Assembly (NCBI RefSeq): GCF_024346455.1
Contig: NZ_JAGQCY010000003.1
Location: 124,001-188,000 of the forward strand
DNA: 64,000 bases
Source of the DNA: Cyanobium sp. Aljojuca 7A6
GTDB lineage: Bacteria > Cyanobacteriota > Cyanobacteriia > PCC-6307 > Cyanobiaceae
Reading direction: 5' to 3'
Shown: positions 43,070 through 48,269 of the stretch, one piece after another
How the letters are laid out: every line of letters begins with the position of its first letter
How positions within the stretch are numbered: position 1 is the stretch's first letter
Translations under genes and position numbers: made by a program
Notes under the pieces: generated by a model
Databases searched by the model: none
What the model saw: only the letters and a program-made list of their open reading frames with translations
What the model was told of the DNA's origin: nothing

Positions 43070-43128
43070 CCCCGGCCCGTCTGCCTTGCTCCCATACGCT
43101 ACCCGCAGCGATCGGAGCGGCCGGCCAG

Positions 43129-43413
43129 GTGGAGCAACGCCGGGACCCATGGGCACCCTTCCGCATCTGGACCGCCCTGACCATTGGGGTGTACGCGGTG
43201 CGGGCCACCTTCGCCGCCACCTGGGTGGGGGCGATCCCCGGCTGGGTGCTGCTGCTGTTGCTGCTGGTGGCCCTGGCCCTGGCGGCCTCGGCCCTGCTGT
43301 TCCCCGGGCGGGTGATTCCCTGGCGGGAGGGGGAACCGATGGGCTGGTGGGGCCGCTTCCAGGCCGACCGGCGCCTGGGCCGCCGGCCCAAGGCCGGTGA
43401 CGACCCTCGATGA
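43129..43413 (+). CDS. Small membrane protein opening the FHA-kinase cluster
   Basis: A 94-residue protein from GTG 43129, with two TM segments (about 10-29, IWTALTIGVYAVRATFAATW, and 33-54, IPGWVLLLLLLVALALAASA) and a basic C-terminal tail (FQADRRLGRRPKAGDD). The frame is open upstream to 43024 but that overlaps the divergent PBP gene. Its stop overlaps the start of the next gene (ATGA), so it belongs to the signalling operon. Function unknown. Confidence 0.6.
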   Translation: MEQRRDPWAPFRIWTALTIGVYAVRATFAATWVGAIPGWVLLLLLLVALALAASALLFPGRVIPWREGEPMGWWGRFQADRRLGRRPKAGDDPR

Positions 43414-44135
43414 ACGCCCAACCCCGGCTGCTGCTGCGTGACGATCCCGGCCGGAGCGTGCCGCTGGATCCCCGCACGCCCCTCTCCATCGGCCGCGATC
43501 CGGCCAGCGGCCTCTGTCTGGGCCAGGCCCAGGGCGTCTCCCGCCACCACGCCCTGGTACGGCTGTCGCGCACCAGGGCGGGCCAGTGGCTCCTGTGTGA
43601 CCTGGGCAGCGCCAACGGCACCTACCTCGAAGGCGCCCGGCTGCGGGACTGCCGGCCCCTCTCGGACGGCGACGAGATCCGGCTGGGCCTGAAGGGGCCG
43701 GTGCTGCAGTTCCGCAGCAGCGGCAGCGCTCCCCCCGAGGCTCTCCCTTCCGCCGGCCGCCGTGCGGCTCCGGCGGTGGCCCAGCCGGTTGCCGGCCAGC
43801 TGGATTTCGCCGGCCGTTCCCTGCCCCTGGATCGAATCCGCTCGGCCTACGTGGGCAGCCGGCGGCGCCATCCCCAGGCCTTCAGTTGGTGGCTGCTCCT
43901 CTGTCTGGGCGGCCTGCTGCTGCTGCCCTTCCCCTGGCTGTTCTGGTCTCTGCAGCTGGGGGCGCTGGCGGGCTGGATCCTGCTGGGGTCCCGCTGGGAG
44001 CATCTGCTCGAGGTGACGCTCCAGGACGGCCTGGCCTATCGGCACCGCTTCGACAGCCTGGAGACGGCCCTGGCCCACCGCAACGGCATCCGCAAGGCCA
44101 TGGGTCCGAGCCCGGCGGCGGGGAGGCGCCCATGA
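43410..44135 (+). CDS. FHA domain membrane protein
   Basis: A 241-residue protein. The N-terminal FHA domain (about 5-105) has LSIGRDPASGL, GVSRHHALVRL and DLGSANGTYLEGARL, all key phosphopeptide-binding positions. A Pro/Ala linker leads to a TM hairpin (about 155-195: WWLLLCLGGLLLLPFPWLFW, then LGALAGWILLG) and a cytoplasmic tail. It overlaps both neighbours by four bases. It is the likely membrane receptor for targets or for autophosphorylated kinase encoded by the next gene. Confidence 0.88.
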   Translation: MNAQPRLLLRDDPGRSVPLDPRTPLSIGRDPASGLCLGQAQGVSRHHALVRLSRTRAGQWLLCDLGSANGTYLEGARLRDCRPLSDGDEIRLGLKGPVLQFRSSGSAPPEALPSAGRRAAPAVAQPVAGQLDFAGRSLPLDRIRSAYVGSRRRHPQAFSWWLLLCLGGLLLLPFPWLFWSLQLGALAGWILLGSRWEHLLEVTLQDGLAYRHRFDSLETALAHRNGIRKAMGPSPAAGRRP

Positions 44136-45487
44136 GCTGGATCCTGCCGGAGGGCGCCAGCCTGGGCTTCGAAGGTCTGGCCGCACCGCTGCGGATCGTG
44201 CGCGGCCTCGGGGGTGGCACCCAGGGCCAGGTCTATGAGGTGGACCTGGAGGGGGAGCGGCTGGCCCTGAAGTGGTACCTGCCAGCCTGCATCGCCCGCG
44301 ACGGCGGACTGGAGCGGCGCCTGATAGCGAGCATCCGGGCCACCGCCCCGAATGAGGATTTCCTCTGGCCGATCGCCCTGCTGCGGGCCAGCCCCGCCAG
44401 CCGCCCCCTGATCCGCATCCGCGACGAGAGCTTCGGCTACCTGATGCCCCTGCGGCCGCCCGCCTACGTGGGCGCCTGCGAGCATGCCGCCGGCCGGCTG
44501 GCGATCGGCCTGCGCCAGGTGCTGCGGGCCTGCTTCGGCCTTGCTGACGCCTTCCATTCCCTGCACCTGGCGGGGCTCTGTTACAAGGACGTCTCGCTCG
44601 GCAACCTCTTCCTGGAGCCCGACAGCGGCGGCATCCTGATCTGCGACAACGACAACGTCGCGGTGGATGGCGCCGACCATGGCGCCGTGCTGGGCACCCC
44701 GGGTTTCATGGCTCCGGAGGTGCTGCTGGGGCAGGCCCGTCCCGGGGCCGACAGCGACCTGTTTTCCCTGGCGGTGCTTCTGTTCCGGCTGCTCACCCGC
44801 CACGACCCCCTCAAGGGCCAGATGGAGCTGGCGATCCGCTGCCTCGATGAGCCGGCCCGCCGGCGTCTCTGCGGCGAGGACCCGGTGTTCATCTTTGATC
44901 CGGTGGATGACCGCAACCGGCCCGACCCGATCGAGCATGCGGCGGCCCTGATCACCTGGCCCATCTACCCCCGACCCCTCCAGGCGCTGTTCGAGCAGAC
45001 CTTCTGCCGCGGCATGAAGCAGCCCTCCCGCCGCGCCCTCACCGGCCAGTGGAAGCAGGAGCTGGCCCGCACCCTCGACCGCCGTGCCTTCTGCCCCGCC
45101 TGCGGCCAGGAAAACTTCCAGGCCAGCGGCGGCCCGGCGCTGTGCTGGAGCTGCGGCGCCCCCCTGCCGGAGCCGACCACGCTGCTGCTGCCCCATGGGA
45201 GCGTGGTCGCCGCCCCCGACAACGAGCTGCACGCCCACCACTTCGATGCCCTGGCCGGGGAGGATCTGCGCCGGCCGCTGGCCCGGGTGGTGGCCCATCC
45301 CCAGGACCCCCGGCGGCTGGGGCTGCGCAATCTCTCCACGGTCGCCTGGAGCGCCGAAACCCCCGACGGCCGCGTCCAGGCGGTGCAGCCTGGCGAGAGC
45401 TGTAGCCTCGCCGCACTCACCCGGATCCAGTCCCCGGCGGGTCCGATCGCCGTGCAACGCCCCACCCGGCCATCCCCCGCCGCCTGA
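44132..45487 (+). CDS. Hanks-type serine/threonine protein kinase with zinc ribbon
   Basis: A 451-residue kinase. The glycine loop is GLGGGTQGQVYEVDL, the ATP lysine is in LALKWYL, the catalytic loop reads CYKDVSLGNLFLE (HRD replaced by YKD, Asp and Asn kept), and the DFG position is DND (ICDNDNVAVDG), followed by GTPGFMAPEVLLG. A zinc-ribbon-like CPACGQENF...CWSCG follows at about 325-355, then a beta-rich C-terminal domain. The architecture fits kinases encoded with VWA and PP2C partners, such as E. coli YegI. It overlaps the FHA gene by four bases. Confidence 0.9.
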   Translation: MSWILPEGASLGFEGLAAPLRIVRGLGGGTQGQVYEVDLEGERLALKWYLPACIARDGGLERRLIASIRATAPNEDFLWPIALLRASPASRPLIRIRDESFGYLMPLRPPAYVGACEHAAGRLAIGLRQVLRACFGLADAFHSLHLAGLCYKDVSLGNLFLEPDSGGILICDNDNVAVDGADHGAVLGTPGFMAPEVLLGQARPGADSDLFSLAVLLFRLLTRHDPLKGQMELAIRCLDEPARRRLCGEDPVFIFDPVDDRNRPDPIEHAAALITWPIYPRPLQALFEQTFCRGMKQPSRRALTGQWKQELARTLDRRAFCPACGQENFQASGGPALCWSCGAPLPEPTTLLLPHGSVVAAPDNELHAHHFDALAGEDLRRPLARVVAHPQDPRRLGLRNLSTVAWSAETPDGRVQAVQPGESCSLAALTRIQSPAGPIAVQRPTRPSPAA

Positions 45488-45490
45488 TCC

Positions 45491-46228
45491 ATGCCGTTTC
45501 CCGACGTCAAGCTGGCCAACCGGCCGCTCCACTTCCTCTACCTCTGCGACTGTTCCGGCTCGATGGCGGCGTCGGGCAAGATGCAGGCCCTCAACCAGGC
45601 CATCCGCCAGTCGCTGCCGGGGATGGCGGCGGTGGCCCGGGACAACCCGGAGGCGCGGGTGCTGGTGCGGGCCGTGCGCTTCGCCGACCACGCCGCCTGG
45701 CACATCGAGACCCCCACGCCTGTAGACCAACTGGAGTGGCGGGATCTGCAGGCCGGCGGCATCACGGCCATGGGGGAGGCCCTGAAGCTGGTGGCGGCGG
45801 CCCTGCAGACCCCGCCGATGGAGGTGCGAGCCCTGCCGCCGGTGCTGGTGCTGATCTCCGACGGCCAGCCCACCGATGATTTCGCCGCTGGCCTCGAGGC
45901 CCTGCTGCGGGTGCCCTGGGCCCAGAAGGCGGTGCGGCTGGCCATCGCCCTGGGCCACGACGCCGATCTGGAGGTGCTGCAGCGGTTCATCGGCACCGAG
46001 CCGGCCACGGCGGGCCGCTCGCCCCGACGCCCCCTGCAGGCCAGCAACGCCACCTCCCTGGCCCAGTACATCCAGTGGGCCTCCACGGCGGTGGTGGGGG
46101 CCGCCTCGATGCCGGCGAGCCGGGTGAGCGAGACGCCCCTGGAGCCCGCGGTGGGCAACATCCCCCTGCCGGATCTGCCCCCCACCGTGCTGGATCCCAC
46201 CGACGACGTCGGTCCCCTGGTGTGGTGA
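45491..46228 (+). CDS. VWA domain protein (TerY/YegL-like)
   Basis: A 245-residue soluble von Willebrand A protein. The MIDAS metal site is YLCDCSGSMAASGKM near residue 18, with the later Thr/Asp motifs GGITAMGEALKLVAAAL and LVLISDGQPTDDF. The C-terminal tail is Pro/acidic rich (LPDLPPTVLDPTDDVGPL). TerY-type VWA proteins commonly pair with a kinase and a PP2C in phospho-relay modules. It starts 3 bases after the kinase and overlaps the phosphatase by four bases (GTGA). Confidence 0.92.
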   Translation: MPFPDVKLANRPLHFLYLCDCSGSMAASGKMQALNQAIRQSLPGMAAVARDNPEARVLVRAVRFADHAAWHIETPTPVDQLEWRDLQAGGITAMGEALKLVAAALQTPPMEVRALPPVLVLISDGQPTDDFAAGLEALLRVPWAQKAVRLAIALGHDADLEVLQRFIGTEPATAGRSPRRPLQASNATSLAQYIQWASTAVVGAASMPASRVSETPLEPAVGNIPLPDLPPTVLDPTDDVGPLVW

Positions 46229-47601
46229 ACCCCTGGGTGGCGCCGATCGGTGCCAGCCGGGCCGGGGCCTCCCACCTCAGGGCCGGCCGCCCCTGCCAGG
46301 ACGCCGTGCTCTGCGGCGAGTTGCGCGACGCCGCCGGGCAGCCGGTGATGCTGATGGCGGTGGCGGATGGCCACGGCGGGCGCCGCTACCGCCGCAGCGA
46401 GGTGGGCAGTCGCCTGGCCTGCGAGACGGGCCTGGCCGTAGTGGCTGATGCCCTGGCCTCCATGCCCCCGGGGGACGGGGAGGGGGTCTGGAGCCGCTGG
46501 CTGGCCCACGACCTGCCCGAAGCGGTCCAGCGCCGCTGGCTGGAGGCAGTTCAGGCCCACTGGCAGGCCGATCCCGGCGAGGGCGACTTCGAGCCCCTGC
46601 TCTATGGCAGCACCCTGGGCCTGGTGGTGATGACGTCCCGCTGGTGGGGCCATACGGGCCTGGGCGACTGGGACCTGGTGCGGGTGGAGGCGGACGGCCG
46701 CGCCCGGCTGCTGCAGGAGGAGAATGAGCCCACAGCGCTTGGGGAAGCCACCTGTAGCCTCTGCCAACCCCAGGCGGCGGCCCTGTTCGCCCGCCGGGCG
46801 GCCCTGCATGCGATGGCGCCCGAAGCGGCCGATTTCGCCCTGGTGCTCTGCACCGACGGCATCCGCAAGTCCTGCGCCACCGACAGCGATTTCCTTACTC
46901 TGGCGGCCTGGTTGGCCCGCAGCGGCGCTGAGGGGGCCGGCGTCCTGCCGGAGGCGCTGGATCGGATCAGCCGCGAGGGCAGTGGCGACGACGTGACCGT
47001 GGCGATCGGCCGCAGCGGAGCGCCCGCCGAGGAGCTGCCGCCGCCGCCGCCGCCAGCCCAGGCGACGCAAACCCCTCCGCCGTCGCCATCCCCCCCGGCG
47101 GCCCCGGAGGCGTCCCCCCCCCGCCCCCTTCCCCGGAGGCGGCGCCCGGCGATCGGCCGGGCGCTGGCCATCGGCCTGGCCCTGGCCGCCGCCGGTGCGG
47201 GCTGGCTGGCCCTGGTCTGGCCCCAAACCCAGCCCCCGCCGCAGGCGGCGACCACCTCCCCCGGGCTGCGGGCCGCCCTGGCGGAGGTGGAGCGCCTCTG
47301 CAGCCAGCCGGCCACACTGCCCCTGGAGCTGCGCCGTCGCCGCGAGCTGTTCGTCGCCCTGCGCCAGGGCCGGCAGGATCCGGCCCAACTGAAAGCTTCA
47401 GCCGCCACGGATCCCCTGGCAGCCCTGATCGCCGCGGATCTGTCCGCTGCCAATCCAGCTGAGGACAAGCCCGCTGCGGCCCAACCTCCTCCGGCTAAAC
47501 CTCGCCGCCCTCTGCAGGCCCTCGGAGCCTGCCCGGCCCTGCTGGAGGCCCTCAGCCGGCAGTGGGCCGAATCCCCAGCCCCGGCCACCGTTACCCCCTG
47601 A
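46225..47601 (+). CDS. PP2C-family protein phosphatase with membrane segment
   Basis: A 458-residue protein. The PP2C domain covers about 1-265, with AVADGHGGRRYRRSEVG, FALVLCTDGIRKSCATDSDF and GSGDDVTVAIG supplying metal-binding aspartates. A long Pro-rich linker (about 270-310) precedes one TM segment (ALAIGLALAAAGAGWLALVW, about 313-333) and a helical C-terminal part of unknown role. It starts at GTG 46225 inside the VWA stop. It should reverse the kinase, like PphC/YegK in E. coli (analogy). Confidence 0.9.
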   Translation: MNPWVAPIGASRAGASHLRAGRPCQDAVLCGELRDAAGQPVMLMAVADGHGGRRYRRSEVGSRLACETGLAVVADALASMPPGDGEGVWSRWLAHDLPEAVQRRWLEAVQAHWQADPGEGDFEPLLYGSTLGLVVMTSRWWGHTGLGDWDLVRVEADGRARLLQEENEPTALGEATCSLCQPQAAALFARRAALHAMAPEAADFALVLCTDGIRKSCATDSDFLTLAAWLARSGAEGAGVLPEALDRISREGSGDDVTVAIGRSGAPAEELPPPPPPAQATQTPPPSPSPPAAPEASPPRPLPRRRRPAIGRALAIGLALAAAGAGWLALVWPQTQPPPQAATTSPGLRAALAEVERLCSQPATLPLELRRRRELFVALRQGRQDPAQLKASAATDPLAALIAADLSAANPAEDKPAAAQPPPAKPRRPLQALGACPALLEALSRQWAESPAPATVTP

Positions 47602-47606
47602 ACCCC

Positions 47607-48269
47607 ATGGCCCTGCGTCTGCTGCTCGATTGCGCCGATCCCCTGGAGTGGGAGCGCTGGCTGCCCAGCGGCCTGTTCCAGGGCGTCACCACCAACCCGA
47701 CCCTGCTGCGGCGGGCCGGTCAGCCCTGCAACGTTGACCACCTCGGGCGGCTGCATGAGCGCGCTGTGGCCCTGGGCTGCCGCGAGCTGCATCTGCAGAC
47801 CTGGGGCGCTGATGGGGAACAGCAGCTGGCCACCGGCCGGGCCCTGGCGGCCCTCGATCCCCAGAGGGTCTTCGTCAAGGTGCCGATCACCCGGACCGGC
47901 GCCGCGGTGGCACTGCAGTTGATCGCCGAAGGGGTGCCTGTCACGTTCACCGCCTGCTACGAGGTGGCGCAGGTGCTGGTGGCCGCTGCCCTCGGAGCCG
48001 ATGGCATCGCCGCCTACCTGGGCCGCATCAGCGATCTCGGCCGTGACGGCCACGGTGAGCTGATCGCCATGCAGAGGGCCCTCGAAGGGGTGGGCTCCAG
48101 CACCCGGTTGCTGGTGGCCAGCCTTCGGCAGCCTGGGGATCTGGCCCGCCTGGCCGCCGCAGGCCTGGCCCACCACACGATCAGCCCGGCGATTGCCGGC
48201 GCCCTGTTCGGCAGCCTGGACACCGCCGCGGCCGCCGAACAGTTTGAAAGGGACGCCCAAGGCGGCTGA
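47607..48269 (+). CDS. Transaldolase family protein (fructose-6-phosphate aldolase-like)
   Basis: A 220-residue short transaldolase-like TIM barrel. FQGVTTNPTLLRRAG is the N-terminal signature, VFVKVPITRTGAAVALQLIA carries the Schiff-base lysine, and VTFTACYEVAQVLVAAALGA plus LGRISDLGRDGHGEL follow. It is of FSA/TalC size rather than the long TalB type, so fructose-6-phosphate aldolase or transaldolase activity are both possible. It starts 5 bases after the phosphatase stop and may be co-transcribed with the signalling cluster. Confidence 0.88.
   Translation: MALRLLLDCADPLEWERWLPSGLFQGVTTNPTLLRRAGQPCNVDHLGRLHERAVALGCRELHLQTWGADGEQQLATGRALAALDPQRVFVKVPITRTGAAVALQLIAEGVPVTFTACYEVAQVLVAAALGADGIAAYLGRISDLGRDGHGELIAMQRALEGVGSSTRLLVASLRQPGDLARLAAAGLAHHTISPAIAGALFGSLDTAAAAEQFERDAQGG

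Follow-up and report, generated by a model that had tools for sequence, protein, structure and literature searches.

What do the gene triads that encode a von Willebrand factor A (VWA) protein, a PP2C phosphatase and a Hanks-type kinase control? The outputs of these triads are poorly known, and the question is raised by a locus in a 64,000-nucleotide stretch of Cyanobium sp. Aljojuca 7A6 (contig NZ_JAGQCY010000003.1, positions 124,001 to 188,000), hereafter the window, which lies inside a 3.13-Mb assembly (genome G000, contig 23). An operon in this stretch encodes a small membrane protein, a membrane protein with an FHA domain (FHA-TM) and the adjacent kinase, VWA and PP2C proteins of the triad. 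A class A penicillin-binding protein (PBP) that itself carries an FHA domain (FHA-PBP) starts 59 bases upstream on the opposite strand, and its gene is counted here as the sixth of the feature (Table 1). The core triad is of a described kind, and what is special begins with the adjoining FHA-PBP. By joining a known type of protein-phosphorylation switch to a wall-building enzyme, the six-gene set, fixed in small cyanobacteria, points to control of wall building by that switch.

Table 1. Features of the six-gene locus, in coordinates of the window (aa, amino acids).
Feature	Coordinates	Strand	Remarks
FHA-class A PBP with FHA, transglycosylase and transpeptidase domains and one hydrophobic segment	40808..43069	-	divergent from operon; probable ATG 43069
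Intergenic region between divergent FHA-PBP and operon, 59 bases	43070..43128	.	gap size in loci: 59 bases in 15/56, elsewhere mostly 3-115
Small membrane protein, 94 aa, GTG start	43129..43413	+	hydrophobic segment 40-58 (hydropathy)
FHA membrane protein (FHA-TM)	43410..44135	+	4-base overlap with small membrane protein gene; N-terminal FHA, then hydrophobic segment 162-180
Hanks-type kinase, 451 aa	44132..45487	+	4-base overlap with FHA-TM; Pfam Pkinase 2e-12
Kinase zinc ribbon, Cys 321/324/338/341	45092..45154	+	cysteines in 62/62; DZR 0.0065, under Pfam cut-off
Kinase C-terminal domain, predicted FHA fold without canonical motif	45170..45466	+	model pLDDT 91.9
VWA protein, intact MIDAS	45491..46228	+	3-base gap after kinase; VWA_2 3.4e-6, VWA 2.1e-5
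PP2C phosphatase, hydrophobic segment 313-331 and tail beyond	46225..47601	+	4-base overlap with VWA; PP2C_2 1.4e-24

The genes of the triad are inherited together. When 300 family genomes were searched for VWA, kinase and PP2C (cut-offs E<=1e-3, E<=1e-15 and E<=1e-8, respectively), each turned up in the identical 62, which belong to 8 of 59 genera, and the kinase is present in 27 of the 36 other genomes of the window's genus. FHA-TM, for which the matches are at least those counted here and include all strong ones, matched strongly in 60 of the 62 triad genomes and in one further genome, G278. The order FHA-PBP (reverse), small membrane protein, FHA-TM, kinase, VWA, PP2C holds, within the limits of the contigs, in 60 of the 62 genomes and in 7 of the 8 genera; this count includes two genomes missed by the synteny listing (L057, L094) that the VWA and PP2C searches fill in. 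A contig end cuts a gene in six of the 60 (the kinase in G235 and G297, the PP2C in G035, G003 and G254, and the PBP in G080), and the small membrane protein, which matches no Pfam family, stands in order in all 60 full-module genomes, the window counted. Four-base overlaps recur between the small membrane protein and FHA-TM genes (53/59), between FHA-TM and kinase (37/60) and between VWA and PP2C (52/59). This arrangement is far from chance, and we consider it very probable that the six genes form one functional unit. The first-pass annotation, which read the operon from the letters of the window, had named its five genes with their coordinates, overlaps and gap correctly, and had asked whether they are kept together in picocyanobacterial relatives, as they are. 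It called the operon complete. A real signalling operon it is, and the range given leaves out the sixth gene, FHA-PBP, which is its likely output.

In the synteny comparison, 56 of 65 loci had the complete gene set on a single contig; in some of these (L055, L097, L084) the outermost gene is truncated where the contig stops. Among the nine remaining loci, the VWA match of L057 overlaps the kinase match and was filtered, but is among the raw matches; the PP2C of L094 was found in a separate search; L079/L080 and L088 end inside the kinase and L096 lies at a contig end; L059 and L068 are Prochlorococcus; and L098, from another family, has VWA and kinase only. Both exceptions to the order among the 62 genomes are Prochlorococcus (genus g52; MIT 0701 and AG-412-I05), neither of which has a match to FHA-TM, and the second of these loci (L068) is on a 4.9-kb contig too short to show its neighbours. 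In L059 (1348-3705, 5539-7368, 11669-13201) the triad stands, by eye, between trypsin-like/TPR proteins, and an FHA-ABC transporter is encoded at a distance of about 5 kb, so that the same triad has different neighbours. Genome G278 was rejected as a case of triad loss, and is not counted as triad-negative, because its contig ends 55 bases after the FHA-TM match. Stop codons inside kinase matches were likewise rejected as recoding; the matches were judged to overrun the natural end by a few residues because kinase open reading frames of 443, 450, 443 and 443 amino acids were recovered from four of the genomes concerned (L040, L047, L050, L052). One genome that is 68% complete (G327) bears two full modules on two contigs (L093, L099), either a mixed bin or a real duplication. 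Among the best 80 of 278 places, the closest named records with the VWA of the operon are Synechococcus and Cyanobium strains, including Synechococcus sp. WH 5701 (L141, 76% identical to that of the window). A record titled as a Bifidobacterium breve metagenome-assembled genome (L140) carries a VWA at 79% identity and is probably mislabelled or a mixed bin.

The penicillin-binding protein of this locus differs from the FHA-PBPs found elsewhere in these genomes. Its domains match Pfam strongly (Transgly 1.4e-42, Transpeptidase 9.1e-24, FHA 2.3e-11), and a hidden Markov model built on triad-linked FHA-PBPs scored approximately 950-1070 bits against its own type, 366-500 against other FHA-PBPs and approximately 300 against a class A PBP without FHA. 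A tree of 88 rows separated three groups, in which 24 triad-linked FHA-PBPs (SH-aLRT 100) stood apart from a housekeeping FHA-PBP group of 55 rows that triad-negative genomes carry as well. The tree took 24 of the 58 triad-type sequences and left out L237-L239, L255 and L256, which are triad-type, and L254, a fragment. By these sequence comparisons the triad-linked FHA-PBP is a separate paralogue clade. Eighteen genomes were searched, and the triad-linked type was absent from all 15 of them that lack the triad, nine of which are from the window's genus (seven of the nine having been judged triad-negative by the kinase search only). On a tree of 56 housekeeping FHA-PBPs, presence of the triad changes at least 9 times. 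Two genomes of different genera, G105 and G251, have near-identical housekeeping FHA-PBPs (L215, L232) with the triad in G251 only, and mis-binning is possible there.

The dedicated paralogue also has an intact FHA pocket and intact catalytic motifs. In residue numbering that begins 7 residues ahead of the ATG (P0006), G85, R86, S100, H103, N125 and G126 of the pocket are present in 58/58 sequences, as are the SxxK and SxN motifs and the transglycosylase glutamate; the KTG lysine is present in 56/58. These residue counts, and those below, left out two kinases shorter than 400 residues, one PP2C shorter than 250 and one FHA-PBP shorter than 600; G327 contributes two copies, and G278 enters the rows of the small membrane protein, FHA-TM and FHA-PBP. 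Catalytic residues in the kinase, PP2C and PBP were assigned from what is known of their families. FHA-TM, whose FHA domain is above the Pfam cut-off (1.3e-16), has a complete pocket in the window copy (G28, R29, S44, H47, N69, G70) which is eroded in relatives (N69 in 24/62, S44 in 54/62, R29 in 51/62). The first-pass annotation had named the lack of a phosphothreonine pocket in the FHA domains as a point against its reading; the pocket is intact in FHA-PBP and in the window's FHA-TM, and eroded in the FHA-TM of many relatives. Because one pocket is eroded and the other invariant, the main phosphothreonine reader is probably FHA-PBP rather than FHA-TM. The tail of FHA-TM is weakly DUF6232-like (13 of the 32 members match at E<1, the best at 0.0039), with no match in the window's own copy.

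Mean column identity is 74% for VWA and 67% for the kinase, compared with 50% for FHA-TM. The FHA, Hanks-type kinase, VWA and PP2C domains that had been called from the sequence all exceed their Pfam cut-offs. The kinase does have YKD (151-153) and DND (172-174) in place of HRD and DFG, as had been noted, and both are invariant in 62/62 aligned kinases, together with K47, D153, N158, D172 and the four zinc-ribbon cysteines. The MIDAS residues of VWA, also recognized at the outset, are invariant in 61/61, and the metal-binding aspartates D26, D48, D211 and D255 of PP2C in 60/60. Kinase and phosphatase keep key catalytic residues and may be catalytically competent. Neither the window's kinase nor its VWA has a hydrophobic segment by hydropathy. 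PP2C does have a hydrophobic segment, as originally proposed, and it lies at 313-331; the hydropathy threshold is loose for calling membrane segments, since the window's transaldolase and 8 out of the 63 kinase rows clear it too. Within the whole genome there are two Pkinase, one PP2C_2 and three FHA matches, and the operon's PP2C is the sole PP2C_2 match. The second Pkinase match is on contig 33 (30116-30592), in a 716-codon frame.

Beyond its zinc ribbon the kinase ends in a domain that is predicted to resemble FHA. A model of the whole kinase (33 rows) reached pLDDT 82.6, with residues 228-275 below 50, and matched protein kinases in the PDB; a model of the tail was made from 45 rows, 12 of them distant. 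By VIA-align the tail is closest to an FHA domain (Z 8.7, root mean square deviation 2.6, 84 residues aligned), the next fold being Smad MH2 at 6.5, and ranks 1-39, with Z down to 6.6, are FHA domains or FHA-containing proteins by title, several by recall; a Z near 8 can reflect a mere common arrangement. Foldseek gave its best match to FHA at E 0.016 and none under 0.001. The tail has no GR, SxxH, NG motif, and the kinase has no Pfam FHA match at E 0.1; in place of the motif it conserves HH, HP and W, and ten columns are invariant across the 45 rows and across phyla (C8, C11, C25, W26, C28, H56, H57, P77, G84 and W93 in model numbering). These observations give moderate support to the prediction of a non-canonical FHA fold, and the tail is read here as a putative docking domain, for which phosphopeptide binding is not implied.

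The triad core is far more widespread than the locus. Among the best 80 of 278 places, VWA relatives 53-60% identical to that of the window occur in Acidobacteria, Riflebacteria, Anaerolineae, Thiotrichaceae, Desulfobacterales, Trichodesmium, Okeania and others. Beyond the family, 24 loci were compared (L173-L196, each of 3.1-14.7 kb); PP2C follows VWA in 23 of them, and the kinase and tail models match one gene in 14, indicating that the tail is homologous to that of distant triads. An FHA gene is near only one of the 24 (L178), on the opposite strand and about 3.7 kb off, in agreement with the earlier remark that FHA readers are an addition here. Across 291 genomes of the class, VWA matches came from 16, among them 10 that lie outside the family, and the class VWA loci outside the family (about 3.5 kb each) contain no FHA and no PBP. 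The triad itself thus has a broad distribution, and its cell-wall extension was observed in this family only. In the Trichodesmium and Okeania loci (L173 5130-13650, L177), several VWA-type proteins or fragments surround the triad VWA, some of which bear a portion of the kinase-tail domain but no kinase.

The operon had also been put forward as the best candidate for an undescribed system, and for the core this is not supported, because a kinase with a zinc ribbon and a beta-strand-rich domain, a PP2C and a standalone vWA are described beside GAP1-N2 systems of actinobacteria in PMC7159879 (eLife 2020). The two triads share the three proteins and, within the kinase, a zinc ribbon followed by a beta-rich tail; there GTPase systems adjoin, whereas here the neighbours are FHA-PBP, FHA-TM and the small membrane protein. 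The tail here is predicted to be FHA-like, and the two tails are likened by description. The likeness first drawn to E. coli yegI, yegL and yegK holds as remote homology. There the VWA, PP2C and kinase genes yegL, pphC (yegK) and yegI are also close together (L034); VWA matches the YegL profile at E 7.5e-7 (hhalign probability 91.8) and the kinase matches that of YegI at E 2.7e-6 (88.6), whereas the PP2C match to PphC is short (46 residues, E 1e-5). YegI also departs from HRD and DFG, having by eye VGD and DSD at these places, so that such departures are not unique to the kinase here. Unlike the kinase here, YegI lacks a zinc-ribbon tail and extends at its C-terminus into a long region that shows, by eye, a hydrophobic stretch and gives a weak helix-hairpin-helix match, and no FHA or PBP product is among the 14 features of the E. 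coli yeg stretch. The E. coli kinase and phosphatase have been studied as a pair: YegI autophosphorylates on serine and is dephosphorylated by PphC, and no expression-promoting condition could be defined for yegI and pphC (PMC13232886).

In its mode of working, the operon may be closest to a phosphorylation pathway of type VI secretion. Pseudomonas PpkA, the kinase of that pathway, carries a VWA domain. PpkA phosphorylates the membrane protein TssL on threonine, Fha binds phosphothreonine (PMC3953482) and PppA reverses Fha phosphorylation (PMC10482370), so that a kinase, a PP2C and an FHA protein steer the assembly of an envelope machine via phosphothreonine. Here, in contrast, the FHA domain forms part of a class A PBP, and a type VI link was rejected as the sheath protein VipB has no match in the genome (a control matched E. 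coli). By analogy the operon would work like this pathway, yet it belongs to the VWA-PP2C-kinase triads. Cyanobacterial fusions of FHA and Hanks kinase are reported to keep GR, SxxH and NG (PMC1262709); they too unite both domains in one protein, whereas the tail here follows a zinc ribbon and lacks the motif. A table entry in the same article pairs a Pseudomonas kinase with a Willebrand domain. Excerpts of PMC2877116 and PMC6213207 contain nothing on this gene set, and the FHA-PBP arm of the triad was not found among the open-licence papers listed. In mycobacteria, FHA readers tie the Ser/Thr kinase PknB to peptidoglycan synthesis. PknB is a transmembrane PASTA kinase, whereas here the kinase is soluble and accompanied by VWA, and FHA is within the PBP itself.

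How might these proteins act together? An envelope signal would be received, perhaps via the PP2C tail, which would extend beyond the membrane and might serve as an envelope sensor, or via the small membrane protein. The MIDAS-bearing VWA and the kinase's FHA-fold tail may hold or switch the soluble kinase, which, with VWA, may phosphorylate a threonine on a membrane partner, for which the small membrane protein, FHA-TM, the PP2C linker and the cytosolic part of the PBP are candidates. The FHA domain of the class A PBP, in which the pocket is conserved, would then bind the phosphothreonine, so that the PBP is recruited or activated and wall synthesis placed or boosted, and the membrane PP2C, with its metal residues in place, would reset the state. 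That the locus is such a membrane Ser/Thr phosphorylation switch, dedicated to one peptidoglycan synthase and with the cell wall as its output, we judge to have an even chance of being right. Somewhat more tentatively, we propose that the triad drives the dedicated FHA-class A PBP directly, the reader being built into the wall synthase, and that the divergent FHA-fold tail docks the kinase in the complex.

Several observations weigh against a dedicated wall output. The PBP, the small membrane protein and the FHA-TM tail are found in 0 of the 24 loci outside the family, and Prochlorococcus MIT 0701 has the triad only, with no FHA-PBP within the 18 kb fetched, no genome-wide FHA-PBP search having been made in either Prochlorococcus genome; the triad therefore has other outputs elsewhere. 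Housekeeping FHA-PBPs exist without the triad, so this kinase is not a requirement for a PBP with FHA. The triad-type FHA-PBP changes with the triad in 5 of 5 independent contrasts, which favours the link, but this number is too small to reach significance (p = 0.0625). Among the 15 triad-negative genomes, 5 have a completeness of 78-90%. The kinase lacks a conserved alpha-C glutamate (E61 in 29/62), the genome has the second Pkinase match on contig 33, the FHA-TM pocket is eroded as described above, and a hydrophobic segment beyond residue 260 of PP2C is present in 39 and missing in 13 of 52 long rows (8 short rows set aside). Finally, adjacent genes with a common promoter region can be inherited together even when their products do not interact. 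A rival explanation is a general stress triad of the YegL/PphC/YegI-like or TerY-P-like type that acts on many cytosolic substrates, with FHA-PBP and FHA-TM merely co-transcribed or co-regulated. Triads without FHA-PBP in other phyla and, within the fetched stretch, in Prochlorococcus speak for this explanation, to which we give perhaps one chance in a few; against it, the triad-type FHA-PBP was not seen in the 15 triad-negative genomes that keep the housekeeping FHA-PBP, and the gene order is fixed across 7 genera.

The PBP could instead be sensor or substrate rather than output, the kinase marking its cytosolic part when wall synthesis stalls and FHA-TM reading and relaying the mark. FHA-TM is indeed a second reader in the gene row with a full pocket in the window copy, but given the erosion of that pocket in many relatives (N69 in 24/62) against its invariance in the PBP (58/58), we regard this as improbable. 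A module for defence, conflict or metal stress, of the TerY-P or GAP1-N2 type, is a distant prospect. The TerY-P triad of tellurium-resistance systems, which Anantharaman et al. are said to have described in 2012, reportedly consists of VWA, PP2C and kinase. The window's VWA matches the PADLOC model of TerY only weakly (E 0.0029), its kinase matches kinase models of several defence systems (best 5.8e-14), and the make-up of the triad matches that beside GAP1-N2 systems (PMC7159879). A Ter system was nevertheless rejected on the absence of TerD, which has no match in the genome (a control matched in 2 of 14); a scan of viral contigs found no relative of VWA; and the locus is beside the PBP in fixed order across genera.

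Smaller features of the locus deserve mention. A TAnnCT-like element was seen by eye in the 20 upstream regions viewed between FHA-PBP and the small membrane protein gene and is a candidate promoter element only. A transaldolase-like gene, named by eye, begins 5 bases after PP2C (47607-48269); in some other loci its homologue is beyond the far side of FHA-PBP, and many loci have none within the fetched stretch.

The open-licence papers listed included none on a kinase-controlled wall synthase in cyanobacteria. In this locus the partner of the triad is genetically fixed and its enzymatic role is known, and what the triad controls therefore becomes testable along a line from kinase through FHA to peptidoglycan synthase. 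If the proposed wall-synthase switch is true, a Ser/Thr kinase of picocyanobacteria would control peptidoglycan by way of a reader domain that the wall synthase itself contains.

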